Shown here: piece by piece, positions 1 through 37,496 of the stretch
Layout of the letters: the number at the start of each line of letters is the position of its first letter
Numbering within the stretch: position 1 is the first letter of the stretch
IMG/VR virus record: IMGVR_UViG_3300027969_000217
Location: 1-37,496 of that record
Reading direction: 5' to 3' (one strand)
Origin: a virus
DNA: 37,496 nt
Position numbers and translations under genes: made by a program
The notes under the pieces: model-generated
The model's input: only the letters and a program-made list of their open reading frames with translations
What the model was told of the DNA's origin: nothing
The model's database searches: none

Positions 1-828
1 TCAGGCAGCGGAGTAAAGAGCCGATTCAGTCCTACCGGTATGCTACTGATTAAGCCGAAGACATCACTAAGCGAAGGAGACAGCGGACTCAGTGGCGAGT
101 ACCTTAAGTTTGTTAGTCCTCCGATGGATACGCTAACCTTCCTACGTAGTGAGATTGAGCAGCAGATGGCTAAGGCAAGACGCATACTGCATCTTCCATC
201 AAGCGATGAAAGTGGAACTATCGGTGAGGCATCAACTGCAACAGGAAGCTTGAATAAGCTTCGCGCATTGTACGCTTTCGTGAAGCCTATCAGCGATCAG
301 CTATTCACCATCTACGAATTCTGCTTGGTGACAATGGGCCGCATGAGATACGGCGATTTGTTTGGCGGAGTAAACTTAGTTTATCCAACCTCATTCGACA
401 TCTCAACACCAAGCGACTACCTTGCTATTATTGCTGAAGGTGTCAAGGCAGGCGTTCCTCCTGCGGTGACTTACTCGAATGTTTACAACTACATCAGAGC
501 AATCAACTACACAGACGAGGAAAGTAGTGCTTTATTTGAGCTAATAGTTAACGCAGACGAGTTGCTTCTTATGAGCAACGCTGATGTGCTTGCTCGACTT
601 GCAAGTGGGACGGTTGAGAAGTGGCAAGATGTATTGCATAACTCAGCACCTCAACTTGTGATGGAGCTTATGCGTGACTACATCGCAACAGAGGAAGCAC
701 CGAAGTTCTTTGACCTTCCGATGAACGAGCAGATTGCACAGCTAAGAGCGAAGGCGGCAGAGAAGATTGCAACAACATTGGATCCGATAGCACAGGCACA
801 ACAAACTCTTTTGAATGGCATCGTTTGA
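1..828 (+). CDS. Portal protein, C-terminal part (5'-truncated by the window edge)
   Basis: The frame is open from base 1 (tca ggc agc...) and matches residues 361-635 of the complete portal gene at 33173-35080, with three visible amino-acid changes (T/N, I/V, E/D). The portal is the dodecameric ring at the capsid vertex through which DNA is packaged and to which the neck attaches. The fragment holds the C-terminal stem and crown part, including a helical EIEQQMAKARRIL segment. An internal ATG at 40 is not the real start, because the reading frame continues upstream. It overlaps the next gene by 14 nt. The identification rests on gene order (portal, then Mu F-like protein, scaffold, capsid) and on the full copy. 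Confidence 0.85.
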   Translation, partial: SGSGVKSRFSPTGMLLIKPKTSLSEGDSGLSGEYLKFVSPPMDTLTFLRSEIEQQMAKARRILHLPSSDESGTIGEASTATGSLNKLRALYAFVKPISDQLFTIYEFCLVTMGRMRYGDLFGGVNLVYPTSFDISTPSDYLAIIAEGVKAGVPPAVTYSNVYNYIRAINYTDEESSALFELIVNADELLLMSNADVLARLASGTVEKWQDVLHNSAPQLVMELMRDYIATEEAPKFFDLPMNEQIAQLRAKAAEKIATTLDPIAQAQQTLLNGIV

Positions 829-1765
829 TGAACTTGTTAAGCGTAAGATTAAGCTACTTGAAACCGTTCCCGAGGACATTGCAACTGCGGCGGAGAAGGC
901 ACAGCGAGAAGCATGGAGAAAGATTGCTCCACTTCTCGCTGAGATGGATGTCGATGCCGATGGAAACATTGCACAGACGGAAAACAATATTAGACGAATT
1001 GGAGGAATAACAGAGGAACTCAACAAGGTACTTGCAGGCGGAGAATACAAAGCCGCCGTGCAGTCGTTCCTTGCTTCCATCGATGAAGGTGTTCAGCTTA
1101 CTGATGACATCGCAAAAAAGATTGACAGCACCTTTCAACCCGACAACGTACAAAAGCAACTACTCGCAATATCCAAGCAGAACGCAATCAATGCCTTCTT
1201 TGGTTCTGGACTTCGGCAGAATGTTACAGTGCCATTCCTTGAGCAGCTTACTGCAAACGTAGCGGCAAGAGCACCACTGCGCGAAGCAACCAAAGCATTG
1301 CAAGGAGTAATCGAAGGAACTGATGCAAACGATGGCAGGCTACTTGCCAATGTGCGCACTACTGCAAACACAGCTCAAGCAATCGCTGACAGAAGCTATG
1401 CAGCAGCTGTCAATGAAGAACTTGGCATTGAATACTTCCAATACCTGGGCGGAGAAATACCGACAACAAGACCATTCTGCCAACATAGAGAAGGTGAGAT
1501 ATATCATCGTAAGGAGATTGAGGCGTGGGGCGATGGCAAGAACAGCGCAGGCATCAACGACATTCGCAACGGCACATGGGATGGACGCATCGATGGCACT
1601 GACTCACGCAGCATCTTCACCTTTGTTGGTGGTTGGAACTGCCGCCACTTCCTTGTTCCAGTAATCAAGCAAAGAGTTCCTGCATCAGTAATTGCAAGAG
1701 CAGAGGCAGAAGGTTTTGCAACACCACCAAGACCAAGAGGAGGAGCTGAAGCACTAACGGCTTAA
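815..1765 (+). CDS. Minor head protein, Mu F / SPP1 gp7-like
   Basis: A 316-residue protein encoded directly after the portal. The N-terminal two thirds is helical and highly charged. The C-terminal part carries the family signature: RPFCQH with C222 and H224, a W-x-D/G-rich middle, then GWNCRH with C276 and H278. This Cys/His pattern is typical of the phage Mu gpF / SPP1 gp7 head morphogenesis domain and probably binds a metal. Family members sit inside the procapsid near the portal and help assembly or DNA delivery. The start at 815 overlaps the portal stop by 14 nt and is supported by a second copy at 35067. Function is inferred from motif and position. Confidence 0.85.
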   Translation: MASFDELVKRKIKLLETVPEDIATAAEKAQREAWRKIAPLLAEMDVDADGNIAQTENNIRRIGGITEELNKVLAGGEYKAAVQSFLASIDEGVQLTDDIAKKIDSTFQPDNVQKQLLAISKQNAINAFFGSGLRQNVTVPFLEQLTANVAARAPLREATKALQGVIEGTDANDGRLLANVRTTANTAQAIADRSYAAAVNEELGIEYFQYLGGEIPTTRPFCQHREGEIYHRKEIEAWGDGKNSAGINDIRNGTWDGRIDGTDSRSIFTFVGGWNCRHFLVPVIKQRVPASVIARAEAEGFATPPRPRGGAEALTA

Positions 1766-1782
1766 GCGCAATAGAATAATAT

Positions 1783-1811
1783 TTTGCGCAATCAAAAGTT
1801 TACTATCTTTG
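1783..1811 (+). promoter_or_regulatory. Bacteroidota-type promoter upstream of the scaffold region
   Basis: A -33 TTTG (1783-1786) is separated by 17 nt from the -7 element TATCTTTG (1804-1811), matching the TTTG-N17-19-TAnnTTTG consensus known for Bacteroidota. The first ATG follows only 4 nt after the -7 element, so a transcript from here would be nearly leaderless for the 1816 ORF, with a normal leader for the scaffold gene at 1931. The same element is present at 36035-36063. Confidence 0.75.
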
Positions 1812-1815
1812 CCTT

Positions 1816-2037
1816 ATGACTTACTACATCATGAGAGATGGCAGCATCAAGCAAGCATCTGATGTACTCGCAAAAGAACTTATCAAGCGAGGAGCAAGAG
1901 AATTGAAACTAACACCAATAACAATAGACTATGGCAATCAAATCGGAGGAAGCACTGGAGCTGATGAAGTTCCTCAACCTCGAAGAAGCAGCCGACCTAG
2001 AAGCGGCAAAAGAAAAGTTCCAAGAAAATTGGATTAA
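1816..2037 (+). CDS. Small hypothetical protein overprinted on the scaffold gene start
   Basis: A 73-residue ORF placed immediately after a promoter. The first 40 residues look like a normal short protein (MTYYIMRDGSIKQASDVLAK...). The last third lies in a different frame over the first 107 nt of the scaffold gene and becomes strongly basic and proline-rich (PRRSSRPRSGKRKVPRKLD). Such a long overlap is unlike the 4-20 nt overlaps elsewhere in this genome. It could be a real overprinted gene, or an upstream leader ORF whose translation feeds the scaffold start. The ATG is very close to the predicted transcription start. I do not recognise a family. Confidence 0.5.
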   Translation: MTYYIMRDGSIKQASDVLAKELIKRGARELKLTPITIDYGNQIGGSTGADEVPQPRRSSRPRSGKRKVPRKLD

Positions 2038-2752
2038 ACAGGAAGAAGTAAGCGGCAAGATTGGCAAGCTTACCGGTACTATTGCCAATGTAACTCGCAA
2101 AGCATTTGAGCCGTTTGGCATCGTGCTCACTGACGAGGACTTCAAAGGGCAGAAGGTTGAGGAAGTTATTCGCAGCGCATCAGAGAAAGCAAAGACGTCG
2201 TTTGAAACACAGCGCGAAGAGTGGGAGAAGCGTGCATCTGGCAACGGCTCAGAGGCATTGCTGCAAGAGTGGGAGAAAAAGTATAAATCACTTGAGCGCA
2301 AGAGCAATGAGCTTGACTCCGCTCGCCAAGATGTGATGAATCAGTTTGAGTCTTACAAGGTACAAGTTGCAACCGACATCAAGACGAGCAAAATCAACTC
2401 ATCATTCGAGAAGGAGCTTGGCGCATTGAAGCTTGATCCAAGTGTAAACGAGTACACCATTCGTGGATTCAAGTCGGCGGTCACTGATAAGTATGCAATC
2501 GACCTTGAGGATGATGGTGCATTCGTTGTTAAGGATAAGGCAACAGGCGAGCGGTTGAAGAGCAAGGAGAAGGCAGGATCGTTTCTAACAATGTCCGATG
2601 TGCTTATCAAGGAAGCAACAGAAGCAGGCATCATCCAAAAGAATCCTCATGCAGGAGCAAAATTTCCTGCACGTAATCCGTTGATACCTCAACTCGAGGC
2701 AGCATCGGAAAAAAAATTAAAAGGAATCAACCCTAGATTCTACCAAAAATAA
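1931..2752 (+). CDS. Capsid scaffolding protein
   Basis: A 273-residue, very charged, largely helical protein directly upstream of the major capsid gene, which is the canonical scaffold position. Residues roughly 85-150 (around EEWEKRASGNG and EKKYKSLERKSNELD) have coiled-coil heptad character. The C-terminus is short, basic and proline-containing (KLKGINPRFYQK), as expected for the capsid-binding end of a scaffold. Scaffolds line the procapsid interior and leave or are cleaved on maturation; no protease gene is visible nearby. The second copy at 36183 is identical in amino-acid sequence. Assigned by context and composition rather than by a specific motif. Confidence 0.75.
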   Translation: MAIKSEEALELMKFLNLEEAADLEAAKEKFQENWIKQEEVSGKIGKLTGTIANVTRKAFEPFGIVLTDEDFKGQKVEEVIRSASEKAKTSFETQREEWEKRASGNGSEALLQEWEKKYKSLERKSNELDSARQDVMNQFESYKVQVATDIKTSKINSSFEKELGALKLDPSVNEYTIRGFKSAVTDKYAIDLEDDGAFVVKDKATGERLKSKEKAGSFLTMSDVLIKEATEAGIIQKNPHAGAKFPARNPLIPQLEAASEKKLKGINPRFYQK

Positions 2753-2753
2753 T

Positions 2754-2761
2754 TATCTTTG
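2754..2761 (+). promoter_or_regulatory. Isolated -7 element TATCTTTG just before a terminator
   Basis: The sequence TATCTTTG follows the scaffold stop codon at once. No convincing -33 TTTG is seen 17-19 nt upstream. Transcripts starting here would meet the strong terminator at 2790-2821 after about 55-60 nt, so they would be a short non-coding RNA unless there is read-through into the capsid gene. Confidence 0.4.
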
Positions 2762-2789
2762 TAGGGGGTATTAATGTTTTTTTAGTTTG

Positions 2790-2821
2790 GCCGCACTTGT
2801 TAAGAGTGCGGCTTTTTTTTT
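2790..2821 (+). terminator. Rho-independent terminator between scaffold and capsid genes
   Basis: Perfect 8-bp stem GCCGCACT (2790-2797) / AGTGCGGC (2805-2812), 7-nt loop, followed by nine T residues (2813-2821). It lies upstream of the capsid promoter and so separates capsid transcription from the upstream operon. Confidence 0.9.
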
Positions 2822-2822
2822 A

Positions 2823-2830
2823 TACCTTTG
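2823..2830 (+). promoter_or_regulatory. -7 element for the major capsid transcript
   Basis: TACCTTTG begins directly after the T-tract of the preceding terminator. It fits TAnnTTTG; a -33 TTG is only found with a 23-nt spacer, so that half is weak. It would give the capsid gene a leader of about 100 nt (2835-2936), the longest leader in this genome. Confidence 0.6.
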
Positions 2831-2936
2831 TGATTCTCTATGGTAGTCGGCAGGACTTTCAGCTGCAAAAAGTAGGCATCAAAGCAACAGCCTTCAGAAT
2901 ACGTTGCAAAAAATTCTACAATAAAAAACGACTATC

Positions 2937-3980
2937 ATGTCTATTTCAAGAATACTTTCCGAATGTCCTAATGTTCAGATGAACTTAGGCGAATTATTTA
3001 TCGAGGTTGGTCAGCGCGAGCAACTTCCATTTCTAGAATTCTTATTGTCTCCAGAGAATGCGAAGATGATCCGCACTGAAGTTGCTCCAGGTAATGGAAA
3101 ACTTAAGACGGTTCAAGCTCGTTGGATTCAGCGTTTGCCTGAGACGGAAGTTGAAGAAGGTGGCGACATCCTTACTTGTACTTCAAGCAACACGTATGGC
3201 GATTCAACTGCAACATACACAGTTGAAACGACTGACACTTACACTGCTTCTCAATTGATTAATGCAGCGGATATCGCTCGTCATTGCCAAGAGAACAGCC
3301 GTTATGTGCTTGAGTCAATCATGCGCTTGATGGATGTATTAGATCGCAAGATTGCTTCTGCTGCTGCTGTTCAGTCTGTTGCTGCAATTGGTAACTGGGG
3401 AACTGAAGTAGAAGCATTCTACACAGTATCTTCTGATTGCTTAGTTGTTCCAACTATGATCACTGACAATGAGCCTAACGCATTTGCTATCGCTGACATT
3501 CAGCAAGCAACACGCATGGCTAACTACCCAGGTGCACCAATTGCATTCGGTGGAGCAGCGATGCAGCGTTATGCTAACGCGATGGCAGCAGGATGCTGCA
3601 CTCAGTATGGTATCGACTTACTTGCAATCACTCAGCAAAACGGTTTCGGCTTTGCTTATGATGCTCGTTTGGCAGCTGCTCAAGGTTCTCAGTCTAAGGC
3701 GTTGGTTACAACAGCAGGAGCAATCCAGTGGTTGTCATTCAACCTTGCAGAGTGGAACACAGGCATCACTCCAACAGCAGGAAGCAACTACTCTAAGACG
3801 TTGGTGTATACACCGGCAGGAGTTCCAGTTGACTTGACTATGAAGGATGATTGCGGAAACTTATCAATTGTATTGACTACAACTGGTATCATCGCAACAT
3901 TGCCAACTGACATCTATGAGGCATCAGACAAGTATGCAGGTGTTAACTACGTGAATTGCGTATCTATCGTAAACCCGTAA
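2937..3980 (+). CDS. Major capsid protein
   Basis: A 347-residue protein following the scaffold gene, transcribed as its own unit between two terminators, as expected for the most abundant virion protein. The N-terminal part (LFIEVGQREQLPFLEFLLSP) resembles the N-arm region of Bacteroidota phage capsids. The middle has an Ala-rich spine-helix-like segment (SMRLMDVLDRKIASAAAVQS). I see no HK97-type protease cleavage signal. Codon use differs from its neighbours: it is richer in T-ending codons (gct, ggt, gtt), consistent with high expression. The stop at 3978-3980 is preceded by a possible -1 slippery site, so a longer minor form may exist. A divergent second allele begins at 37189. Confidence 0.85.
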   Translation: MSISRILSECPNVQMNLGELFIEVGQREQLPFLEFLLSPENAKMIRTEVAPGNGKLKTVQARWIQRLPETEVEEGGDILTCTSSNTYGDSTATYTVETTDTYTASQLINAADIARHCQENSRYVLESIMRLMDVLDRKIASAAAVQSVAAIGNWGTEVEAFYTVSSDCLVVPTMITDNEPNAFAIADIQQATRMANYPGAPIAFGGAAMQRYANAMAAGCCTQYGIDLLAITQQNGFGFAYDARLAAAQGSQSKALVTTAGAIQWLSFNLAEWNTGITPTAGSNYSKTLVYTPAGVPVDLTMKDDCGNLSIVLTTTGIIATLPTDIYEASDKYAGVNYVNCVSIVNP

Positions 3981-9288: not shown

Positions 9289-9773
9289 AAATTACAGACT
9301 TAGGTACATTGACTACGGCAGTTGATGCAGACTTATTATACATCGTGGACGTTAATGACACATCCCAATCCCCACAAGGCACATCTAAGCAGATTGAACT
9401 TGGTAATATCGTAAGTAGCGGCAATTGGACTCCAGTAGTTAGCGGTGAGACTTACAATGAAATTGTAAGTATTCAAAGAGCAAACTATTCAAGGGTAGGG
9501 ACTATTGTCAGTTGCTCCTTATTTATGGATATTGACCTTGATGTAGCAGAAACACAAGCAGACTTTCAATTCTCCATTCCAGTAGCATCAGATTTCACCA
9601 ATGCAAAAGATGCTTTTGGAATCGTTGCATATAATGGAGATAATACGCAGTTTACTGGATGGTTAATAAGTGCTGATGTTGCAACTAATAAAATAGCTAT
9701 TGCCGTTTCATCAGTAACAACTGGATATTCTTTTCAATCTTTATACGTAATGCTGCAATATGAAATCGTCTGA
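9276..9773 (+). CDS. Small tail-fibre-associated protein
   Basis: A 165-residue protein. The N-terminal motif MAGVKITDLGTLTTAVDADLLYIVD plus SQSPQGTSKQIELGNI is a recurrent adaptor in Bacteroidota phage fibres (a KITDLG... DADLLYIVD strand-turn module). A beta-rich C-terminal domain of about 110 residues follows (NWTPVVSGETYNEIVS..., FSIPVASDF). The C-terminal half has AT-richer codons than the N-terminal adaptor, again fitting exchange of tip domains. It overlaps the lysozyme gene by 14 nt. Likely a virion component at the tail tip or a decoration; exact role unknown. Confidence 0.6.
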   Translation: MAGVKITDLGTLTTAVDADLLYIVDVNDTSQSPQGTSKQIELGNIVSSGNWTPVVSGETYNEIVSIQRANYSRVGTIVSCSLFMDIDLDVAETQADFQFSIPVASDFTNAKDAFGIVAYNGDNTQFTGWLISADVATNKIAIAVSSVTTGYSFQSLYVMLQYEIV

Positions 9774-10218
9774 TAACGGCATCAGACTCATACAAGAGTT
9801 TGAGGGCTTGCGCTTGACTAGCTACCTATGCTCAGCAGGAGTGCCGACCATTGGCTATGGTGCAACCTTTTACCATGATGGCAGCAAGGTGAAGCTCGGG
9901 CAGACCATAACTAGAGACCAGGCGAATCAACTTCTTAAGGATCACCTTAAGGAGTTCGAAGGCAGCGTGATAGGACTGCTAAATGGCACGGCTGTGAACG
10001 CTAACCAGTTCGATGCGCTTGTAAGTTTCTGCTACAACGTGGGCGCAGCAAATCTCGCCAAGTCGCAGATGCTAAGATTCATCAAAGCCAATCCAAACGA
10101 CCCGAAGATTGCAGCCGAGTTTCTTAAGTGGAACAAAGCAGGCGGCGAGGTTTCAACTGGGCTTGTAAGAAGACGCAAGAAAGAGGCGCAACTATATTTC
10201 ACTCCAATCGTTTCTTAA
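9760..10218 (+). CDS. Endolysin, GH24 (T4-type) lysozyme
   Basis: A 152-residue muramidase that cleaves the MurNAc-GlcNAc bond of peptidoglycan at lysis. The catalytic signature is clear: E15 (EFEGLRL), then C24 where T4 lysozyme has Asp20, and T30 in GVPTIGYG, giving the E-8aa-D/C-5aa-T spacing. The downstream NQFDALVSFCYNVG and GLVRRRKKEAQLY segments are also typical of the family. There is no signal peptide, so export must depend on a holin; the next gene is holin-like. Length is normal for GH24. Confidence 0.95.
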   Translation: MKSSDNGIRLIQEFEGLRLTSYLCSAGVPTIGYGATFYHDGSKVKLGQTITRDQANQLLKDHLKEFEGSVIGLLNGTAVNANQFDALVSFCYNVGAANLAKSQMLRFIKANPNDPKIAAEFLKWNKAGGEVSTGLVRRRKKEAQLYFTPIVS

Positions 10219-10223
10219 TTATT

Positions 10224-10424
10224 ATGGCGGCAAGGAGAGTCAGCAAACCAAGGCAAGTGCTTGACATTATTCTCAAGCACTGGAGGCCAACAATTGGCTC
10301 TTTGGCGATTCTCAGTTCTGTCTTTGCTTTAATCTTTAAGCAGATATCAACAGAGACACTTGCAGCGATAGTGGCAGCAATGGTGGCCGCAGGATACATA
10401 CCTAAAAGCAGTGACAATGGATGA
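10224..10424 (+). CDS. Holin-like small membrane protein
   Basis: A 66-residue protein beginning 5 nt after the lysozyme stop (an in-frame upstream ATG at 10128 lies inside the lysozyme gene and is less likely). The basic N-terminus (MAARRVSKPRQ) is followed by two hydrophobic segments, TIGSLAILSSVFALIF and ETLAAIVAAMVAAGYI, and a polar tail. Size, charge pattern and position next to the endolysin fit a two-TM (class II) holin that permeabilises the inner membrane and releases the lysozyme. No sequence family is recognised. Confidence 0.6.
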   Translation: MAARRVSKPRQVLDIILKHWRPTIGSLAILSSVFALIFKQISTETLAAIVAAMVAAGYIPKSSDNG

Positions 10425-10899
10425 CGGAATAGACTCAGTACAAGTGATCACGACCCTCGATGAGGGTTGCGTGGTGGGCATTGGCTGCAAGGTCCATACG
10501 CATCACCACACAATTCACATCGAGCCGCAGATAGTATACCAATCGATGGAGAAATTCACTATCTTTGGCAAGCACTATTGCACTAATCAATGGGGGCAAA
10601 CTTACGAGTTGCCTGCCGATGAGCCAATGCCAGAGCCGATTCATATGCAGCAAACATACGCAAGCGATACAATCACACCAACCACATCTGCATTCTTGCT
10701 TGCTCCTAAGCCAGAGGCTAAGATTATAATCAAGCCTCGCACTGAGTACTCCAAATACAAGCCGACAATGGATGGACCAGTGATGGGCGTGCTGTTGACA
10801 TTTACAATTTACCTCACAGCGCAATGGGCATGGAGCTCGATGACTGCTTGGAATAATCTATATAGCGAACTCTCTGCATGTCTTCGCTCTTCATCTTAG
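10411..10899 (+). CDS. Membrane-anchored hypothetical protein in the lysis cassette
   Basis: A 162-residue protein with one hydrophobic segment near the C-terminus (about residues 122-140, GPVMGVLLTFTIYLTAQWAW), so probably tail-anchored with a cytoplasmic N-terminal domain. The N-terminal part contains a histidine cluster (HTHHHTIHIE, residues 29-38) and several cysteines, suggesting possible metal binding. It overlaps the holin-like gene by 14 nt and the PAS-HisKA gene by 22 nt. The start could also be the ATG at 10417. It might regulate lysis, but nothing in the sequence proves this. Confidence 0.6.
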   Translation: MTMDDGIDSVQVITTLDEGCVVGIGCKVHTHHHTIHIEPQIVYQSMEKFTIFGKHYCTNQWGQTYELPADEPMPEPIHMQQTYASDTITPTTSAFLLAPKPEAKIIIKPRTEYSKYKPTMDGPVMGVLLTFTIYLTAQWAWSSMTAWNNLYSELSACLRSSS

Positions 10900-11444
10900 A
10901 ACATTCGATTGATTTGTTTTATGTGGTCACTGATCAAGACGGCAGAATTGTGTCCAACAATGAGCTGTTTAAGAACTATGTCAGCCATATTAAGCCAAAG
11001 AAGATCACCGATATCATAAGCATCGAAGGTGACAAGGATGACTTTATTGAAGCCATTGAGAAAGCTCGCAAGCATTCGCCTGAGCCATCAAGAGTCTATG
11101 CTCGCACAAGACAGAAGAATACAAGCGACAGATATAATGTTTGGAATTGCTTTGCGATTGCTGACACTCTACACTTTGTCGGCATCCAGATGGTGGATGT
11201 AACAAGCATTAGCTCACACGATCATGAGCGGCAGAAAGTCCTGCTCGAGGAGTTCCGCTTTATGCTATCGCACGAGCTGCGCCAACCATTGACCAACATC
11301 TCTGGACTTGTGCAGATGCTCATGCAGCATCAAGGTGCAAGCGATGTCGATAGAAAGGATGTGCTGAGCATGATCCACACATCGGTCAACAAGCTTGATG
11401 ATGCAATCAAGATACTCATCAAGAAAGCAGCTCGAGAATTATGA
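10878..11444 (+). CDS. PAS-HisKA protein lacking the kinase ATPase domain
   Basis: A 188-residue protein built like the front half of a sensor histidine kinase. Residues about 8-110 look like a PAS domain (IDLFYVVTDQDGRIVSNNELF, typical PAS start; FVGIQMVDVTSIS end). Residues about 120-185 form a HisKA (DHp) hairpin with a full H-box, FRFMLSHELRQPLTNISGL, including phospho-acceptor H132 and P137. The protein stops just after the second DHp helix. No HATPase_c domain follows, and the next ORFs do not encode one, so this is not a simple frameshift. It has no transmembrane segment. It could accept or drain phosphate in a host two-component pathway, or dimerise with a host kinase. Overlaps its neighbours by 22 and 4 nt. 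Confidence 0.8.
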   Translation: MSSLFILEHSIDLFYVVTDQDGRIVSNNELFKNYVSHIKPKKITDIISIEGDKDDFIEAIEKARKHSPEPSRVYARTRQKNTSDRYNVWNCFAIADTLHFVGIQMVDVTSISSHDHERQKVLLEEFRFMLSHELRQPLTNISGLVQMLMQHQGASDVDRKDVLSMIHTSVNKLDDAIKILIKKAAREL

Positions 11445-11623
11445 CGGATCGGCAAGCGGACGAGAGACTGGTTAAGGTTGCCGCTTGGTACGTGATGGAG
11501 CGCGGCATGCCGGTATGTGTAGCATTGCAGATATTGCAAGCGGAGCTCAAGGATAAAAGATTGTTTTGGGAGTCATCGCAGGAACTTATAAAAATCATTC
11601 AACATGGCATCTGTCAAAGCTGA
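11441..11623 (+). CDS. Small hypothetical protein
   Basis: A 60-residue protein coupled by ATGA to the PAS-HisKA gene and overlapping the next gene by 20 nt. Predicted helical, with a hydrophobic and aromatic core (VKVAAWYVMERGMPVCVALQIL). No family recognised. Tight translational coupling suggests it may act with the PAS-HisKA protein, but this is inference. Confidence 0.6.
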   Translation: MTDRQADERLVKVAAWYVMERGMPVCVALQILQAELKDKRLFWESSQELIKIIQHGICQS

Positions 11624-12251
11624 GACCCTATTCTTAGGCGCAATCATTGTGCTCTTGTTCTTGTTGTTAAAAAGTTGCGGCGATGGCGTTGAGTCAGATT
11701 ACCGCCTTAAGCACACGATGTATGAGGACAGCATACTTATCGCCTCACAGCGCAAAGTAATCGCACAGGCAGGCTCTGATGCAGCCAAACAAGCGCAGCA
11801 GATTGCAGAGCTCGAAGTCAAAGTCAAGAACGCAAGCGAGGTGGTGCGCATCGAGACCAGGACAATCATCAAAACGCAAATAAAAGTAGGCGATACAGTC
11901 ATGGTCAATGGGCTGCCGCTAATAAGAACAGGAAAGCCGTTCCTTAAGACTGATAAATGGTATACAATTGGTGGATTCATCAACCGCCTTGGTTGGTTGC
12001 AGATTGATTCGCTAGTGATCCCGGCAAAGTTTACCTATGCAGTCGGTGATACCATGCGCACTGGGCTAATAAATCGACTCCTGAAGAAGAAGGATACGGT
12101 TGTACGTATGAGAGTCGACAATCCCAATGTCACCATCACCGGAATGTCAAACATCTACATCAAGCAAGATAAAAAGTGGCATCAGACAACCGCATTCAAG
12201 GTAGGAGTTGGGGCAATCATAGGCTTCGGATTGGGAGTGAGTAGAAAATAA
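11604..12251 (+). CDS. Membrane-anchored coiled-coil protein, possible spanin
   Basis: A 215-residue protein with an N-terminal membrane segment (LFLGAIIVLLFLLLKSCG, about residues 9-25), a charged coiled-coil stretch (about residues 45-90), a beta-rich periplasmic-like domain, and a hydrophobic Gly-rich C-terminal segment (VGVGAIIGFGLGV). With both ends hydrophobic and a soluble middle, it could span the periplasm, and it closes the lysis cassette. This would fit a spanin-like role in outer membrane disruption, but no lipobox-containing partner is evident. The short cysteine after the first TM is not a clear lipobox. Confidence 0.5.
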   Translation: MASVKAETLFLGAIIVLLFLLLKSCGDGVESDYRLKHTMYEDSILIASQRKVIAQAGSDAAKQAQQIAELEVKVKNASEVVRIETRTIIKTQIKVGDTVMVNGLPLIRTGKPFLKTDKWYTIGGFINRLGWLQIDSLVIPAKFTYAVGDTMRTGLINRLLKKKDTVVRMRVDNPNVTITGMSNIYIKQDKKWHQTTAFKVGVGAIIGFGLGVSRK

Positions 12252-14015: not shown

Positions 14016-14248
14016 ACGAGCTAAACAACATAGGCGCAGAGTTCGCCAATTTCAACCGCTACCTTGATGCAATCATTGATCCACGCGAAGCAGAAAACGA
14101 CACGATGGAAGCCAAGGTAAAAGAAGCAATCATCCAAGCCTACTCAAACGGCTACCATGATGGGCAGCAAGCAATGGCCGACAGACTTCCGAAGCCAACT
14201 TATAACGGAGGCGATGAAGGAGGGCGCGAGTATTATGATGCGTTGTAA
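14012..14248 (+). CDS. Small hypothetical phage protein
   Basis: A 78-residue acidic protein translated from an ATGA overlap. The segment IIQAYSNGYHDGQQAM resembles short helical proteins common in the replication regions of Bacteroidota phages, but no function is known to me. Its end overlaps the HNH gene start by 14 nt. Confidence 0.6.
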   Translation: MNELNNIGAEFANFNRYLDAIIDPREAENDTMEAKVKEAIIQAYSNGYHDGQQAMADRLPKPTYNGGDEGGREYYDAL

Positions 14249-14840
14249 CTGGACACTGCAAGAGACCGAGCTGCTGATTGAGTACTATCCGCATCGGTCG
14301 ACAAAAGAGGTGGCATTCATCACTGGGAAATCAATCTCCCAGTGTTATGCCAAAGCCTTCGCACTTCAATTGCATAAGACTCCCGAGTATCTTGCGACAG
14401 AGCTTAGCGGCAGACTCAAGAAAGGCAACATCGGCACTTACTTCCCCAAAGGACATGAGCCTTGGAACAAAGGCATGAAGGGGCTTGACATCGGAGGCAA
14501 GGAGACAAGATTCAAGAAGGGCACTGTGCCACCGAATCACAAAGAAGTCGGCTCTGAGCGCATCGATGAAGATGGATACACCTATATCAAGATTGCTGAG
14601 CACACGCGATGGGTGCTGAAACATCGGCACATCTACGAACAGCATCACGGCAAGCTTGAGCCGCACATGATAGTGACATTCCGCGACAAGAACATCAGCA
14701 ACTTCTCCATCGAAAACCTCGAAGCAATCACCAAAGTGGAAAACATGGAGCGCAACCGCATCACCAAATACCCTCAACCAATTCAACAAACAATTAAAAC
14801 TCTGAACAAGTTATGGCACGCAATAAAATCGAAGACCTAA
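14235..14840 (+). CDS. HNH endonuclease with N-terminal helix-turn-helix
   Basis: A 201-residue protein from ATG 14235 (a run-in ORF from 14157 exists, but the later start overlaps the previous gene only slightly and lies behind an AAGGAGG). Residues 5-45 form a SANT/HTH-like DNA-binding unit (NWTLQETELLIEYYPHRSTKEVAFITG). Residues 70-100 carry NUMOD3-like FPKGHEPWNKG and FKKGTVPPNHK motifs. The catalytic core is HNH: H130-R-H132, H144, FRDKN (N153) and NFSIENL (N156, N161). Such proteins are free-standing homing-type nucleases that cut DNA and promote spread of their own gene; phages also use them in packaging. Overlaps the next gene by 28 nt. Confidence 0.85.
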   Translation: MMRCNWTLQETELLIEYYPHRSTKEVAFITGKSISQCYAKAFALQLHKTPEYLATELSGRLKKGNIGTYFPKGHEPWNKGMKGLDIGGKETRFKKGTVPPNHKEVGSERIDEDGYTYIKIAEHTRWVLKHRHIYEQHHGKLEPHMIVTFRDKNISNFSIENLEAITKVENMERNRITKYPQPIQQTIKTLNKLWHAIKSKT

Positions 14841-23997: not shown

Positions 23998-24194
23998 GCA
24001 AGGTAGGCGCAATCATAAGAGGTTGGTGGTTCATGATCAGAGGCAAGAACAATGAGCTGAGCAAACCACGCACAGCCATCTGTGCTCTGTGCCAACACAA
24101 GGACAAGCGACTCAACACTTGCAAGGAATGCGGCTGCTTTCTTCCTGCTAAGACAAGAGTGGAGGATGCAGAGTGTCCATTCGGTTACTGGTGA
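23994..24194 (+). CDS. Zinc-ribbon small protein
   Basis: A 66-residue protein from ATGA. The C-terminal half is a compact zinc ribbon: CALCQHK ... CKECGCFLPAKTR ... CPFGYW, ending at the last tryptophan. Such proteins (similar to DUF6171-type) occur near packaging and tail genes of Bacteroidota phages. Function unknown. It ends 1 nt before the next ATG. Confidence 0.7.
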   Translation: MSKVGAIIRGWWFMIRGKNNELSKPRTAICALCQHKDKRLNTCKECGCFLPAKTRVEDAECPFGYW

Positions 24195-24195
24195 C

Positions 24196-24453
24196 ATGGC
24201 AGGCTTCATCCATGTTCAGACTAAGCTTATCCAGTTTATGGATACTGATGATGAACAGCTCAAGGACTTGACAGCTGAGGAGATTGGATGGACGGACTTA
24301 CTTGTTAACACGGACCAGATTAATTATGTGTTTGATGATAAGTTGGACACCATTATCATGATGCAAAACGGAAGCACACTATACGTTAAAGAATCAATAC
24401 ATGAAGTACATAACAGGATTAAAAGGACGACTGCGCTCTTTATTGGGCAGTAA
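24196..24453 (+). CDS. Small hypothetical protein
   Basis: An 85-residue acidic protein from ATG 24196 (the frame is open from 24082). It contains FIHVQTKLIQFMDTDDEQL and a strand-turn pattern TIIMMQNGSTLYVKESIHEVHNRI, the latter resembling flagellar- or PilZ-like small beta proteins that read a fixed Leu/Val strand. No family recognised. It overlaps the chaperone-like gene by 53 nt. Confidence 0.6.
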   Translation: MAGFIHVQTKLIQFMDTDDEQLKDLTAEEIGWTDLLVNTDQINYVFDDKLDTIIMMQNGSTLYVKESIHEVHNRIKRTTALFIGQ

Positions 24454-31063: not shown

Positions 31064-31603
31064 ATGGCCTGTGTATCATATTGCGACACGTCCTTGCTTG
31101 ACCACAACTTGGTCAATTGCAACGAATATAAGCTTGGCGGAGTTTCCGCTATTATCGTAGGTGCTTGCGGAACAGAATTAGTTGACCCATCAAGTGATGT
31201 TGAAGTTGATGTTTTATTGTTAGCTGGCACTGCCAAGCTAATCAGTGACATCAGATTCGCACTTCCTGCTGGATCACCTATTACTGTCGATTCACCAATC
31301 GGCTGCGGCACTTCAATCCGTATCAACGAAGATCGTACTGCGACATTGTACGATGCGAATGTAACTGACGAGAACAATACGTTCTGGAACGATGTAAACA
31401 ACCGCCGTATCTCTTGGATACTTGCGTACATGTGTGACAGCGGAAAGGTGATTTATATCTCTGCTCCTGTTGGAATTACAACATCTGCAAACTTCATCTT
31501 GCCTGAGCAGAACAATGAGCTTCAGCGTTATGAGGTGACCTTCTCTTGGAGAAACAAAGATATCCCTGCTCAATATGATGCTCCTGCCGGAGTGTTCGCA
31601 TAA
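31064..31603 (+). CDS. Probable major tail (tube) protein
   Basis: A 179-residue beta-rich protein with its own promoter and a leader. It begins MACVSYCDTSLLDHNLVNCNEYKLGG (three cysteines) and ends FSWRNKDIPAQYDAPAGVF. Size, fold pattern and independent expression fit the repeated ring subunit of a siphophage tail tube. Codon use is richer in gct/ggt/gtt codons, like the capsid gene, which supports high expression. TAATG overlap with the glycosyltransferase gene. Confidence 0.6.
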   Translation: MACVSYCDTSLLDHNLVNCNEYKLGGVSAIIVGACGTELVDPSSDVEVDVLLLAGTAKLISDIRFALPAGSPITVDSPIGCGTSIRINEDRTATLYDANVTDENNTFWNDVNNRRISWILAYMCDSGKVIYISAPVGITTSANFILPEQNNELQRYEVTFSWRNKDIPAQYDAPAGVFA

Positions 31604-32556
31604 TGACTGAGGAATTATCACAAACCACTCAGAGCATCACTCCATCAACTGGAGTGGTGCTTCTTGCGTTTGGTAAACCGCAATATTATTGGGCGGCTTT
31701 CAATCTTGCTTTCAGCATTAGAAAGCACAGCCCAAATGTCAATATCACAGTGCTTTTTGATGATCCGATTAAGGGCTTAAGCAACTGCCCTGACTTGATG
31801 CAGTATATCAACAACATTGGTCACATTGATGCCGACGATATCTACACCAACAAGAAGCTTGATCCCGGCAAGGTGAAAGTGAATTTATACAAATACTTGC
31901 CATACGATTGCAACCTCTACCTTGACGTAGATGCCATTGCGCTCAAAGACATTCAGCCGATGATTGACGAACTTGCTCAATCCGGCAAAGATTACATAAG
32001 CCATTGCGTGGGATATCACACCATCGACAAGGGGCGAGACTTCAAGGAGATGCAGTGGGCATGGGCGGATAAGCTATGGGCGCACTTCAACTTGCTTGAG
32101 TCTTACGTGATGCCTGCCATCAACAGCTCAATGCAGTGGATAGTAAAAGGCTCACAGGCAGAAGCGATTTATCGCACTGCAAAAGATTTATACTTCAATC
32201 ACCCAATGGAGGTGAAGGATTTGCGTATGAAATGGGGCGGTGGACAGCCAGATGAGTTATACATGAATGTCGCACTTGCGATTCATGGCATTGACCCTGC
32301 GCTTAAGAAGTACGAAAAGATTCAAGGCAGCGAAGGCGGCATGATTCACTTCTCGATGCAGAGAGGGTTGAACTTCCAAGATATAATCGACAACTACTAC
32401 TTGCAAAGCTACTATGGTGGCGCAGGATTCACTCCGATATTTTACATCAATTGGCTTGATAGGATGCTCAATGCGGAATTCAAAGCAATTGGCAAAAGAC
32501 ATATCTACTTAATTAGCAGAATAGCACAAAACAAATATGCAGATGGAAAACGTTGA
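31603..32556 (+). CDS. Glycosyltransferase (GT-A fold, GT8-like)
   Basis: A 317-residue protein. The start of the domain is GVVLLAFGKPQYYWAAFNLAFSI (nucleotide-sugar binding strand and helix), then FDD, and the DxD metal motif YLDVDAI (D108, D110). Later GGGQPDELYMNVAL and GGMIHFSM (a conserved His region) also fit GT8-type transferases. It would move a sugar from a nucleotide donor to a protein, DNA or surface polymer. Placed between the tail tube and methyltransferase genes, virion proteins are a plausible substrate. The next gene overlaps by 20 nt. Confidence 0.75.
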   Translation: MTEELSQTTQSITPSTGVVLLAFGKPQYYWAAFNLAFSIRKHSPNVNITVLFDDPIKGLSNCPDLMQYINNIGHIDADDIYTNKKLDPGKVKVNLYKYLPYDCNLYLDVDAIALKDIQPMIDELAQSGKDYISHCVGYHTIDKGRDFKEMQWAWADKLWAHFNLLESYVMPAINSSMQWIVKGSQAEAIYRTAKDLYFNHPMEVKDLRMKWGGGQPDELYMNVALAIHGIDPALKKYEKIQGSEGGMIHFSMQRGLNFQDIIDNYYLQSYYGGAGFTPIFYINWLDRMLNAEFKAIGKRHIYLISRIAQNKYADGKR

Positions 32557-33118
32557 ACCAAAGAAACGAGGGCGCAAGCCGAAAGCAATTGTGACCACTG
32601 AGACATTCACAGAGGTTGCTCGTCACGACTGGAACTCAGAGGATGAGTGCGGCGCATTCTTAGCGGCACTTGTTAAGATGAGCAAGTACAAGACGGTGCT
32701 TGAGATTGGAGTGTTCGAAGGTGAGACAACTCAGCATCTTATCAATGCGCTTCCGCAAGGTGGGCAGTATGTCGGCATCGACATCAATGATTATCGTACC
32801 GACAAGACAACGGCATTGATGGAAGTTGGTGGCAAGTCGATTGACTTTATACTTGGCAATTCACTTGATGAGTTGAATAAGTTGCCTAAGAATCATTTTG
32901 ACCTTATCTTTGTAGACGGAGACCATAGCTTTGGACATGTGCTGCAAGAGTTTAAACTTGTTGAGAAGTTGGTGGCAAGAGGCGGAATGATTGTTTACCA
33001 TGACACCATCCACTTGGATGGCCCGAGAAAGCTTGTTGAATACGCAGCGCATTATAAATATAACAACGTCACGCTTAACACAACTGAAGGGCGAGGCATC
33101 TCAATCCTACACCGATGA
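32537..33118 (+). CDS. SAM-dependent methyltransferase (class I, Methyltransf_24-like)
   Basis: A 193-residue protein. The N-terminal basic KKRGRKPKA (9-17) looks like an AT-hook or basic DNA-binding motif. The catalytic core follows: VLEIGVFEGETT (motif I, E56-G58), GIDIND (D82, ribose-binding acidic), FDLIFVDGDH (D117, D119, H120) and VYHDTIH. The HDT and DGDH pattern is typical of Methyltransf_24 enzymes acting on sugars or small groups. With the glycosyltransferase it may build a modified glycan. Starts 32537 or 32543. ATGA overlap follows. Confidence 0.8.
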   Translation: MQMENVEPKKRGRKPKAIVTTETFTEVARHDWNSEDECGAFLAALVKMSKYKTVLEIGVFEGETTQHLINALPQGGQYVGIDINDYRTDKTTALMEVGGKSIDFILGNSLDELNKLPKNHFDLIFVDGDHSFGHVLQEFKLVEKLVARGGMIVYHDTIHLDGPRKLVEYAAHYKYNNVTLNTTEGRGISILHR

Positions 33119-33189: not shown

Positions 33190-35080
33190 GGACATTCAAA
33201 AAATAGTTTACCGATTCGCGCATAAGCGAAAGGGTTGGGAGCAGATGTCGCAATCTACTCCATTGAATCCTATAACTAAGCAGCGAGCATCGAGCCAGTA
33301 TCCAGAATATTGGAGCGGTTACAATTATGCCGCCAAGATGTATGATAGCATCTTGCCGCATAGCCGCTCCGATGTTTATCCTGAGCACTTGCTGTCGGTG
33401 CGTGCTCCCAATCAAACGGATGCGCAGGCGATGTACATCAAGGCAAACTATAAGGCAACAACCTTGAGCGTGTTTGAGGACTTCAGAGCAACGATAAGCA
33501 GAGCATTTGCGGATCAGAACTGGAGCATCAGATACTCGCCCGAGTTAGATGCGCGATTTGGTGAAGAGACCTTTCAGCGATTTGTCAATACCGAGATTGA
33601 GAAGTTCGGCAGCTTGGAGATGTTCGTTAAGAATATGCTTCCAACGCTGAAGCTTGTCGATGCCAATGGTATAATTGCCATCTATCCCGATGATATTCCC
33701 TATGTGGAAGTTGATGGAGTAGAGCAGCCGATTATAACTAATGAGCTGCTTCGTCCAATGCCAACCTACTACAACTGCAAGAACATTGTGGGGCAGGAGT
33801 TTGGCGAGTATTACCTAGTCATTAGCGATGACCACAGCCATGTTAAGTCGGGCAGTAAGATGGAAGAGAGCGGTATCGTGCTTTACTTGTACGACACGAT
33901 GGCCATCTACCGCATCGAGCAGACAGGCAAGAAGAGCGACATGACTTTCAGCGAGCCTGTGCTTTACTTCCAACACAACTTGGGATATGTCCCTTGCATC
34001 AAGCTGATGGGAGCACCTCAACTGATAGGTGACGAGATTGCATTTCAATCGCCATTCATCACAGCAGTGCCATTGCTTGATCAGGTTGTTCTTGATGAGA
34101 GCTACTTGCAGATGAGCAAGGCAACAAGTGCATTCCCTTTTATGGTTGCGCTTGGCGAAATATGCGAGTTCGTAGATCGCGAAGGTAACAAGTGTAATGA
34201 TGGGCAGATATTCGACCCAATCAACGGAGGCTATCGCACTTGCTCTTCATGCTCAGGCAGCGGAGTAAAGAGCCGATTCAGTCCAACCGGTATGCTACTG
34301 ATTAAGCCGAAGACATCGCTAAGCGAAGGAGACAGCGGACTCAGTGGCGAGTACTTGAAGTTTGTTAGCCCTCCAATGGATACGCTAAACTTCCTGCGCT
34401 CTGAGATTGAGCAGCAGATGGCTAAGGCAAGACGTATCCTGCATCTTCCATCAAGCGATGAAAGTGGAACTGTCGGTGAGGCATCGACTGCAACAGGAAG
34501 CTTGAATAAGCTTCGCGCATTGTACGCATTTGTGAAGCCTATCAGCGATCAGCTATTTACCATCTACGAATTCTGCTTGGTGACAATGGGACGCATGAGA
34601 TATGGCGATTTATTTGGCGGAGTAAACTTAGTTTATCCGACCTCATTCGATATCTCAACACCAAGCGATTATCTTGCTATCATTGCTGAAGGTGTTAAGG
34701 CAGGCGTTCCTCCTGCGGTGACTTACTCGAATGTTTACAACTACATCAGAGCAATCAACTACACAGACGAGGAAAGCAGTGCTTTATTCGAGCTGATAGT
34801 TAACGCTGACGAGTTGCTACTTATGAGCAATGCCGATGTGCTTGCTCGACTTGCAAGTGGTACGGTTGAGAAGTGGCAAGATGTATTGCATAACTCAGCA
34901 CCTCAACTTGTGATGGAGCTGATGCGCGACTACATCGCAACAGAGGAAGCACCGAAGTTCTTTGACCTTCCGATGAACGATCAGATTGCACAGCTAAGAG
35001 CTAAGGCGGCAGAGAAGATTGCAACAACATTGGATCCGATAGCACAGGCACAACAAACTCTTTTGAATGGCATCGTTTGA
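33173..35080 (+). CDS. Portal protein, complete
   Basis: A 635-residue portal. N-terminal helices (KRKGWEQMSQSTPLNP) are followed by the wing and stem regions. LGYVPCIKLMGAPQLIGDEIAFQSPF is a recognisable portal-core segment, and the C-terminal half is helical (EIEQQMAKARRIL). An unusual cysteine group, C331, C341, C357 and C360 (CSSCSGSG, like a DnaJ zinc-finger repeat), may bind zinc. The portal forms the DNA entry ring and binds the terminase and neck. Followed by the Mu F-like gene with a 14-nt overlap. Its C-terminal part is repeated at 1-828. Confidence 0.85.
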   Translation: MALSSEDIQKIVYRFAHKRKGWEQMSQSTPLNPITKQRASSQYPEYWSGYNYAAKMYDSILPHSRSDVYPEHLLSVRAPNQTDAQAMYIKANYKATTLSVFEDFRATISRAFADQNWSIRYSPELDARFGEETFQRFVNTEIEKFGSLEMFVKNMLPTLKLVDANGIIAIYPDDIPYVEVDGVEQPIITNELLRPMPTYYNCKNIVGQEFGEYYLVISDDHSHVKSGSKMEESGIVLYLYDTMAIYRIEQTGKKSDMTFSEPVLYFQHNLGYVPCIKLMGAPQLIGDEIAFQSPFITAVPLLDQVVLDESYLQMSKATSAFPFMVALGEICEFVDREGNKCNDGQIFDPINGGYRTCSSCSGSGVKSRFSPTGMLLIKPKTSLSEGDSGLSGEYLKFVSPPMDTLNFLRSEIEQQMAKARRILHLPSSDESGTVGEASTATGSLNKLRALYAFVKPISDQLFTIYEFCLVTMGRMRYGDLFGGVNLVYPTSFDISTPSDYLAIIAEGVKAGVPPAVTYSNVYNYIRAINYTDEESSALFELIVNADELLLMSNADVLARLASGTVEKWQDVLHNSAPQLVMELMRDYIATEEAPKFFDLPMNDQIAQLRAKAAEKIATTLDPIAQAQQTLLNGIV

Positions 35081-36017
35081 TGAACTTGTTAAGCGTAAGA
35101 TTAAGCTACTTGAAACCGTTCCCGAGGACATTGCAACTGCGGCGGAGAAGGCACAGCGAGAAGCATGGAGAAAGATTGCTCCACTTCTCGCGGAGATGGA
35201 TGTCGATGCCGATGGAAACATTGCACAGACGGAAAATAATATCAGACGAATTGGAGGAATAACAGAGGAACTCAACAAGGTACTTGCAGGCGGCGAATAC
35301 AAAGCCGCCGTGCAGTCATTCCTTGCTTCCATCGATGAAGGTGTTCAGCTTACTGATGACATCGCCAAAAAGATTGACAGCACCTTCCAACCAGACAACG
35401 TACAAAAGCAACTACTCGCAATATCCAAGCAGAACGCAATCAATGCCTTCTTCGGTTCGGGGCTTCGGCAAAATGTTACAGTGCCATTCCTTGAGCAGCT
35501 TACTGCAAACGTAGCGGCAAGAGCACCACTGCGTGAAGCAACCAAAGCATTGCAAGGAGTAATCGAAGGAACTGATGCAAACGATGGCAGGCTACTTGCC
35601 AACGTGCGCACTACTGCAAACACTGCTCAAGCAATCGCTGACAGAAGCTATGCAGCAGCTGTCAATGAAGAACTCGGCATTGATTACTTCCAATATCTAG
35701 GCGGCGAGATACCGACCACAAGACCATTCTGCCAACATAGAGAAGGTGAGATATATCATCGCAAGGAGATTGAGGCATGGGGTGATGGCAAGAACAGCGC
35801 AGGCATCAACGATATTCGCAATGGCACATGGGATGGGCGCATCGATGGCACTGACTCACGCAGCATCTTCACCTTTGTTGGTGGTTGGAACTGCCGGCAC
35901 TTCCTTGTTCCAGTGATCAAGCAAAGAGTTCCTGCAAGTGTAATTGCAAGAGCAGAGGCAGAAGGTTTTGCAACACCACCGAGACCAAAAGGTGGAGCAG
36001 AAGCACTAACAGCTTAA
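35067..36017 (+). CDS. Minor head protein, second copy
   Basis: Second allele of the gene at 815-1765. 316 residues, with only E/D (near residue 219) and R/K (near the C-terminus) substitutions noticed, while many codons differ at third positions. The Cys/His motif is intact. The mostly synonymous changes show both alleles evolved under purifying selection as real proteins. Confidence 0.85.
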   Translation: MASFDELVKRKIKLLETVPEDIATAAEKAQREAWRKIAPLLAEMDVDADGNIAQTENNIRRIGGITEELNKVLAGGEYKAAVQSFLASIDEGVQLTDDIAKKIDSTFQPDNVQKQLLAISKQNAINAFFGSGLRQNVTVPFLEQLTANVAARAPLREATKALQGVIEGTDANDGRLLANVRTTANTAQAIADRSYAAAVNEELGIDYFQYLGGEIPTTRPFCQHREGEIYHRKEIEAWGDGKNSAGINDIRNGTWDGRIDGTDSRSIFTFVGGWNCRHFLVPVIKQRVPASVIARAEAEGFATPPRPKGGAEALTA

Positions 36018-36034
36018 GCGCAATAGAATAATAT

Positions 36035-36063
36035 TTTGCGCAATCAAAAGTTTACTATCTTTG
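36035..36063 (+). promoter_or_regulatory. Bacteroidota-type promoter, second copy
   Basis: Same TTTG-N17-TATCTTTG element as at 1783-1811. Two base changes lie just after it, before the ATG at 36068. Confidence 0.7.
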
Positions 36064-36067
36064 CTTC

Positions 36068-36289
36068 ATGACTTACTACATCATGAGAGATGGCAGCATC
36101 AAGCAAGCATCTGATGTACTCGCAAAAGAACTTATCAAGCGAGGAGCAAGAGAATTGAAACTAACACCAATAACAATAGACTATGGCAATCAAATCGGAG
36201 GAAGCACTGGAGCTGATGAAGTTCCTCAACCTCGAAGAAGCAGCCGACCTAGAAGCGGCAAAAGAAAAGTTCCAAGAAAATTGGATTAA
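36068..36289 (+). CDS. Small overprinted hypothetical protein, second copy
   Basis: Identical in amino-acid sequence to the ORF at 1816-2037 and overlaps the scaffold copy by 107 nt. Because the two copies carry no changes here, they give no evolutionary test of whether it is translated. Confidence 0.45.
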   Translation: MTYYIMRDGSIKQASDVLAKELIKRGARELKLTPITIDYGNQIGGSTGADEVPQPRRSSRPRSGKRKVPRKLD

Positions 36290-37004
36290 ACAGGAAGAAG
36301 TAAGCGGCAAGATTGGCAAGCTTACCGGTACTATTGCCAATGTAACTCGCAAAGCATTTGAGCCGTTTGGCATCGTGCTCACTGACGAGGACTTCAAAGG
36401 GCAGAAGGTTGAGGAAGTTATTCGCAGCGCATCAGAGAAAGCAAAGACGTCGTTTGAAACACAGCGCGAAGAGTGGGAGAAGCGTGCATCTGGCAACGGC
36501 TCAGAGGCATTGCTGCAAGAGTGGGAGAAAAAGTATAAATCACTTGAGCGCAAGAGCAATGAGCTTGACTCCGCTCGCCAAGATGTGATGAATCAGTTTG
36601 AGTCTTACAAGGTACAAGTTGCAACCGACATCAAGACGAGCAAAATCAACTCATCATTCGAGAAGGAGCTTGGCGCATTGAAGCTTGATCCAAGTGTAAA
36701 CGAGTACACCATTCGTGGATTCAAGTCGGCGGTCACTGATAAGTATGCAATCGACCTTGAGGATGATGGTGCATTCGTTGTTAAGGATAAGGCAACAGGC
36801 GAGCGGTTGAAGAGCAAGGAGAAGGCAGGATCGTTTCTAACAATGTCCGATGTGCTTATCAAGGAAGCAACAGAAGCAGGCATCATCCAAAAGAATCCTC
36901 ATGCAGGAGCAAAATTTCCTGCACGTAATCCGTTGATACCTCAACTCGAGGCAGCATCGGAAAAAAAATTAAAAGGAATCAACCCTAGATTCTACCAAAA
37001 ATAA
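36183..37004 (+). CDS. Capsid scaffolding protein, second copy
   Basis: 273 residues, identical in amino-acid sequence to the copy at 1931-2752, in contrast to the dozens of silent changes in the portal and minor head genes upstream. Followed by the same -7 element, terminator and promoter. Confidence 0.75.
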   Translation: MAIKSEEALELMKFLNLEEAADLEAAKEKFQENWIKQEEVSGKIGKLTGTIANVTRKAFEPFGIVLTDEDFKGQKVEEVIRSASEKAKTSFETQREEWEKRASGNGSEALLQEWEKKYKSLERKSNELDSARQDVMNQFESYKVQVATDIKTSKINSSFEKELGALKLDPSVNEYTIRGFKSAVTDKYAIDLEDDGAFVVKDKATGERLKSKEKAGSFLTMSDVLIKEATEAGIIQKNPHAGAKFPARNPLIPQLEAASEKKLKGINPRFYQK

Positions 37005-37005
37005 T

Positions 37006-37013
37006 TATCTTTG
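37006..37013 (+). promoter_or_regulatory. Isolated -7 element TATCTTTG, second copy
   Basis: Second copy of the element at 2754-2761, directly after the scaffold stop and before the terminator. Confidence 0.4.
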
Positions 37014-37041
37014 TAGGGGGTATTAATGTTTTTTTAGTTTG

Positions 37042-37073
37042 GCCGCACTTGTTAAGAGTGCGGCTTTTTTTTT
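37042..37073 (+). terminator. Rho-independent terminator, second copy
   Basis: Same 8-bp stem, 7-nt loop and T-tract as at 2790-2821. Confidence 0.9.
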
Positions 37074-37074
37074 A

Positions 37075-37082
37075 TACCTTTG
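37075..37082 (+). promoter_or_regulatory. -7 element for the capsid transcript, second copy
   Basis: TACCTTTG directly after the terminator T-tract, as at 2823-2830. Confidence 0.6.
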
Positions 37083-37188
37083 TGATTCTCTATGGTAGTC
37101 GGCAGGACTTTCAGCTGCAAAAAGTAGGCATCAAAGCAACAGCCTTCAGAATACGTTGCAAAAAATTCTACAATAAAAAACGACTATC

Positions 37189-37496
37189 ATGTCTATTTCA
37201 AGAATACTTTCCGAATGTCCTAATGTTCAGATGAACTTAGGCGAATTATTTATCGAGGTTGGTCAGCGCGAGCAACTTCCATTTCTAGAATTCTTATTGT
37301 CTCCAGAGAATGCGAAGATGATCCGCACTGAAGTTGCTCCAGGTAATGGAAAACTTAAGACGGTTCAAGCTCGTTGGATTCAGCGTTTGCCTGAGACGGA
37401 AGTTGAAGAAGGTGGCGACATCCTTACTTGTACTTCTTCTAATGTTTATGGTGATAGCACAACTACGTATACAGTTGAAACAACTGATACGTATAC
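37189..37496 (+). CDS. Major capsid protein, N-terminal part of a second allele (truncated at window end)
   Basis: The first 82 codons (to 37436) match the copy at 2937. After that the nucleotide sequence differs at about 21 of 60 positions, yet the protein reads SSNVYGDSTTTYTVETTDTY against SSNTYGDSTATYTVETTDTY. This is therefore a genuine capsid allele from a related phage, joined to an identical upstream stretch. The 3' part lies outside the window. Confidence 0.85.
   Translation, partial: MSISRILSECPNVQMNLGELFIEVGQREQLPFLEFLLSPENAKMIRTEVAPGNGKLKTVQARWIQRLPETEVEEGGDILTCTSSNVYGDSTTTYTVETTDTY

Follow-up and report, generated by a model that had tools for sequence, protein, structure and literature searches.

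Why would a phage with a genome of about 34 kb keep, among its lysis genes, the sensory and histidine-bearing half of a histidine kinase and nothing of the half that uses ATP? The question is raised by IMG/VR virus record IMGVR_UViG_3300027969_000217, the whole 37,496-nucleotide stretch of which is referred to here as the window. At 10878–11444, on the plus strand like all the genes of its cassette, the window encodes a 188-aa protein with an ATG start that appears to consist of a sensory PAS domain and the dimerisation/phospho-acceptor (DHp) hairpin of a HisKA-type kinase, standing alone. Hundreds of uncultured phages carry this ATPase-less sensor and histidine half of a kinase by their lysis genes. 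Because the reactive histidine has been kept without the ATP-using half, the protein probably plugs into the host's own signalling.

The phage genome and its lysis cassette

The record is a single virus record in which terminase, portal, primase-helicase and endolysin genes were identified. The two ends of the window, 1–3184 and 34253–37436, carry the same sequence (97.5% identical, with 79 mismatches and no gaps), and the mismatches cluster, as if two variants had been assembled. Given this overlap of 3184 nt, the record represents a genome of ~34.25 kb that is either circular or terminally redundant. The nearest relatives of the primase belong to Cellulophaga, Nonlabens and Flavobacterium phages, and its N-terminal domain is BT4734-like. 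Both features suggest that the phage, as first proposed, is of the Bacteroidota type and probably infects a member of that phylum, the host itself being predicted.

Several other genes in the window can be assigned. A replication initiation gene of the phage family NGO0469 (NF046043; 12669–13301, E 6e-50, above the cut-off), here called o210, lies downstream of the cassette, as does an HNH endonuclease gene (14157–14840; PF13392, E 4e-15). The structural region includes a 123-aa ORF (24082–24453) that matches the flagellar FlbD family above the cut-off (PF06289, E 4e-7), which is unexpected in a phage. Also among the structural genes is an O-methyltransferase-like gene (32537–33118; Methyltransf_24, E 3e-18), preceded by a 317-aa gene that by eye resembles a glycosyltransferase gene (region 31603–33118).

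The lysis cassette begins with an endolysin of the GH24 phage lysozyme family (9760–10218; Pfam Phage_lysozyme, E 3e-41; PHROG endolysin, E 2e-55). It is followed by a 66-aa membrane protein (10224–10424) with one or more hydrophobic segments, also present in its homologues, and without a match to any family; its position and topology suggest a holin. A tail-anchored membrane protein of 161/162 aa with a C-terminal transmembrane segment (10417–10899) comes next, then the PAS-DHp gene, a 60-aa ORF (11441–11623) and a 215-aa protein with an N-terminal transmembrane segment at residues 4–22 (11604–12251; DUF6549, sub-threshold at E 4e-5). The last two are conserved in place, and position and topology point to a spanin role for the 215-aa protein. 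The first-pass annotation had the PAS-DHp gene overlapping both a membrane-protein gene and a spanin-like gene. The upstream overlap stands, at 22 nt, but the downstream overlap, of 4 nt (ATGA), is with the 60-aa ORF, and the spanin-like gene starts 160 nt further on. The PAS-DHp gene has a fixed place between the endolysin and holin-like genes on one side and the spanin-like gene on the other, and its link to lysis is one of position. Among the relatives, L140, L229 and others have extra small ORFs between the endolysin and holin-like genes, and a 165-aa tail-fibre-like gene upstream of the cassette is very variable.

Predicted architecture of the PAS-DHp protein

The HisKA profile matches residues 129–177 well above its cut-off (PF00512, E 3e-9, 37.2 bits against 26.9). 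An AlphaFold2 monomer model, computed from the protein with 59 relatives, predicts two long antiparallel helices, 113–150 and 156–187, at medium confidence (pLDDT 62–71), giving a DHp hairpin over residues 113–187 (11214–11438). The hairpin would presumably dimerise. It is preceded by a PAS fold, predicted at residues 11–105 (pLDDT 84–89) and delimited as a domain at residues 13–109 (10914–11204), and the same layout of PAS and hairpin is predicted for a 47%-identical relative. Searches with Foldseek matched full-length LOV/PAS histidine kinases over PAS and DHp together (E 2e-7) and isolated PAS domains at 2.0–2.7 Å over ~105 columns. The PAS assignment depends on these two methods, the Pfam PAS_9 match being sub-threshold (E 0.007). 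A chance HisKA match can be ruled out, since the profile was matched in 59/59 diverse members of the family and the Foldseek hits and the alignment to PhoR agree with it. In that alignment, residues 15–181 correspond to positions 19–172 of the 333 in the NCBIfam PhoR profile (TIGR02966), with PAS and DHp in register and nothing beyond; the score is 36.6 bits, where the cut-off is 334. The likeness to PhoR-type kinases (TIGR02966, PnpS, AtoS) lies in a PAS domain and a HisKA DHp that follow each other with unchanged register and spacing, but the phage protein has no membrane anchor and no CA/HATPase_c domain.

The H-box, FRFMLSHELRQPLTNI, occupies residues 126–141 (11253–11300). The candidate phospho-acceptor, H132, is encoded by CAC at 11271–11273 and is followed by E133 (H+1) and Q136 (H+4). 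The chain stops right after the second DHp helix, with the tail IKKAAREL (residues 181–188; 11418–11441) directly before the stop codon. In these respects the initial reading of an apparent PAS domain, an intact H-box with H132 and an end after the DHp helices has held up, as has its expectation of a DHp hairpin in the predicted structure. By profile and model, the protein has the HisKA/DHp domain of a sensor histidine kinase.

Distribution and relatives

Scans of IMG/VR found the gene on ~220 or more contigs. Some of these stand under several locus identifiers, and a safer figure is at least 159 distinct complete proteins of 185–189 aa, 47–99% identical to the window protein. The order of the cassette is constant throughout the family on these contigs. 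Within the middle clade the PAS-DHp protein has a mean identity of 61% and the endolysin 55%, and by this comparison it is as conserved as the endolysin. An independent set of contigs, not included in the count above, was fetched with o210. The gene is carried by 63 of them, that is, by 63/63 with enough upstream sequence; it is present wherever more than 4.2 kb of upstream sequence is available, and 13 contigs stop short of where it would be. The same gene position across the phage group, which had been proposed as a check, was thus found.

In 158 loci, and also in L309, a relative only 24% identical, the gene immediately before that for PAS-DHp is the tail-anchored one. Its product evolves fast, and 109/158 homologues carry a motif of the Cys-x5-Cys-x2-His type, for which metal binding or a partner role is possible. 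As it is always directly upstream, even in L309, the tail-anchored protein is the best candidate for a phage-internal partner of the PAS-DHp protein.

No relative was found in isolated phages (tblastn against INPHARED). Cellulophaga phage phi46:1 and Nonlabens phage P12024L have the primase in common with the window and gave no PAS-DHp match. The Manatee Spring phages were considered as relatives and rejected; they share only the replication gene and are otherwise unrelated. Among 84,980 species genomes, outside which the host may lie, there was no close cellular relative. The single confirmed bacterial match, L285, has the H-box sequence SHELRQPL and is a full-length kinase of the ordinary kind, in which the N, G1 and G2 boxes can be recognised. 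These results argue against a recent acquisition from the host. A search of open-licence PMC papers found no earlier description of phage-encoded histidine kinases.

Conservation of H132 and the H-box

Among the matches listed, H132 is invariant in 159/159 distinct proteins, at saturated synonymous sites, and H+4 is Gln in all of them. Part of this set was found with an H-box pattern that requires Gln at H+4, and conservation was therefore recounted in the 76 proteins of L001–L174, which were not picked by that pattern, and in the o210-selected contigs. In the 76 proteins, 10/12 of residues 126–137 are invariant, against 62/176 elsewhere (Fisher p 0.0014, sites treated as independent). In the o210-selected contigs H132 is kept in 63/63, while SHELRQP, and with it Gln at H+4, is found in 59/63. 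The other four have diverged H-boxes with His, Ser, Asn and Ser at H+4: SHEIRHP in L356, SHELLSP in L307, NHDVINN in L308, which carries the canonical HDxxN, and NHKLRSS in L309. H132 is kept where E133, R135, Q136 or P137 has changed. Of the H-box residues, by eye, F128 and H132 are the two that L308 and L309 have both retained. These natural variants are useful for asking which residues matter.

The ratio dN/dS is 0.077 for the whole protein, 0.025 for residues 126–141 and 0.035 for the last eight residues, in which K183 and R186 are invariant in the 159 listed proteins. H132 is encoded by CAC in 74 of the proteins and by CAT in 85; this, with the low ratio in the H-box, excludes a simple constraint at the DNA level. 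The earlier impression that the gene is maintained and not broken is borne out by the fixed length throughout the family, the low dN/dS and the invariance of H132 despite synonymous saturation. A pseudogene or truncated kinase is ruled out by that fixed length, by the invariant C-terminal residues and by the lack of any ATPase remnant.

Absence of an ATPase domain and a response regulator

Pfam scans, which covered ORFs of the window and then the whole record, found no HATPase_c domain, in agreement with the first-pass annotation, which saw no remnant in the neighbouring ORFs. Neither HATPase_c nor Response_reg was found in 24 near-complete genomes of 33.8–38.7 kb (0/24 for each), in scans whose positive controls worked. 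All homologues end ~56 aa after H132, and none with HATPase_c was found in the family or the o210-selected contigs, so that the domain has not been lost only here. By these scans, the CA domain and nearby response regulator of a sensor kinase, and the phage-encoded ATPase partner of a split kinase, all appear to be missing. It follows that a partner kinase or regulator, if there is one, has to be supplied by the host and that, the CA domain being absent, autophosphorylation with ATP is not expected.

Possible functions of the PAS-DHp protein

Our tentative preference, held at a little short of even confidence, is that the protein is a PAS-gated DHp partner working in trans on a two-component system of the host, for which it would serve as a phosphoryl acceptor or decoy. 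Late in infection, the DHp dimer would engage the host system, and H132 would take a phosphoryl group from the ATPase domain of a host kinase or, backwards, from a phosphorylated response regulator. As a sink or decoy, the protein could dampen or rewire one host pathway. Control of phosphoryl acceptance may lie with the PAS domain, responding to a small ligand, to redox state or to contact with a protein, and the upstream tail-anchored protein could recruit PAS-DHp to the membrane, the site of the lysis proteins. Within this scheme we infer the phosphorylation of H132, the host target, the PAS ligand, the membrane recruitment and the effect on lysis timing. Three points count against an acceptor or decoy: E133 has become Lys in L309 and Q136 has changed in L307, L308 and L356, so that the chemistry is not uniform; the DHp part of the structure model is of medium confidence and comes from a monomer; and the positions that set specificity in EnvZ, which we take by eye to correspond to T139, G143 and L144, are mostly conserved. 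A broader proposal, in which an entire group of probable Bacteroidota phages has this as a core lysis-module gene whose H132 swaps phosphate with the host two-component system, with the tail-anchored protein as membrane partner and host signalling coupled to lysis or silenced at it, is doubtful as a whole.

To our knowledge, neither the phage protein PIT4 nor the phi3T Rap-Phr has been described as a PAS-HisKA protein, and their architecture is unrelated as far as known. They resemble the present protein in that each is a phage protein aimed at host two-component or phosphorelay signalling (PMC10714779, PMC8027211), and the binding partners of PIT4 are histidine kinases of the host (PMC10714779). 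GacS is inhibited when RetS forms a heterodimer with it and draws off phosphate from the GacS DHp (PMC12189002). RetS acts on another kinase through the DHp, as is proposed for the phage protein, but it is a large host hybrid kinase, whereas the phage protein has 188 aa and a target that is only hypothetical. Between them, RetS-GacS and PIT4 show that a kinase can be inhibited at its DHp and that phages do attack host kinases.

The same two precedents would serve a dominant-negative protein, which pairs with a host histidine kinase in mixed dimers and blocks its autophosphorylation with no need to be phosphorylated itself. DHp domains dimerise, RetS-GacS is an inhibitory DHp heterodimer (PMC12189002) and PIT4 exemplifies the targeting of host kinases by a phage (PMC10714779). 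However, mixed dimers need close DHp likeness, and the species genomes searched, from which the host may be absent, held no close relative; conservation of the protein is lowest in helix 2 and the loop; and blocking of this kind does not require an invariant H132. We regard it as unlikely.

Less probable again is a split kinase, in which H132 receives a phosphate from a host protein with an ATPase domain and hands it on to a host regulator as a productive signal that times lysis. CheA3/CheA4 offer a precedent for a phospho-acceptor apart from its ATPase domain (PMC3591291), but the P1 domain of CheA is an Hpt domain with a partner in the same genome, whereas the PAS-DHp phage has no partner gene; Hpt (PF01627) gave no match in Pfam scans of the window ORFs and family members. 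The residue after the histidine is needed for kinase chemistry in HisKA domains, as seen in CrdS (PMC3510030), and E133 is kept in nearly all members. Against a split kinase stand its replacement by Lys in L309, the lack of a partner ATPase or regulator in the 24 phage genomes, and a link to lysis timing that is positional only.

A PAS-gated phosphatase of a host response regulator seems improbable. The DHp of EnvZ or NtrB alone suffices to act on a response regulator in vivo, with a constitutive phosphatase phenotype (PMC3510030), and L308 has the canonical HDxxN. Those domains are likewise hairpins with a phospho-acceptor His and no ATPase half, but they are fragments made in the laboratory and have Thr or Asn at H+4, whereas the phage protein is natural, with Gln at H+4 and a PAS domain of its own. 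HisKA phosphatase activity requires Thr or Asn at this position, and CrdS N375Q had no measurable phosphatase activity and ~60% of kinase activity (PMC3510030). The Gln, found in 159/159 listed proteins of the partly pattern-selected set and in 59/63 of the independent one, makes a simple phosphatase role less likely and favours an acceptor, decoy or partner role. It adds a constraint to the initial reading, which had suggested a phosphate sink, a dominant partner for a host kinase, or redox or ligand sensing that times lysis. Least probable is a pure scaffold, in which the DHp serves the lysis cassette only for dimerisation and sensing, partnered by the upstream membrane protein and free of phosphochemistry; the tail-anchored gene directly upstream even in L309 would suit it, but H132 is one of two H-box residues kept in L308 and L309 while most around it have changed.

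Significance

Histidine kinases are unexpected as core genes of small phages of 34–38 kb. Studies of a DHp half that lacks the ATPase half have dealt mainly with laboratory fragments, and here such a half forms a natural family under strong purifying selection, next to lysis genes. The PAS-DHp family would give phages a ready-made means to inhibit or tap the two-component signalling of the host, and it raises the testable question of whether the phosphorylation of one phage histidine links host signalling to lysis.
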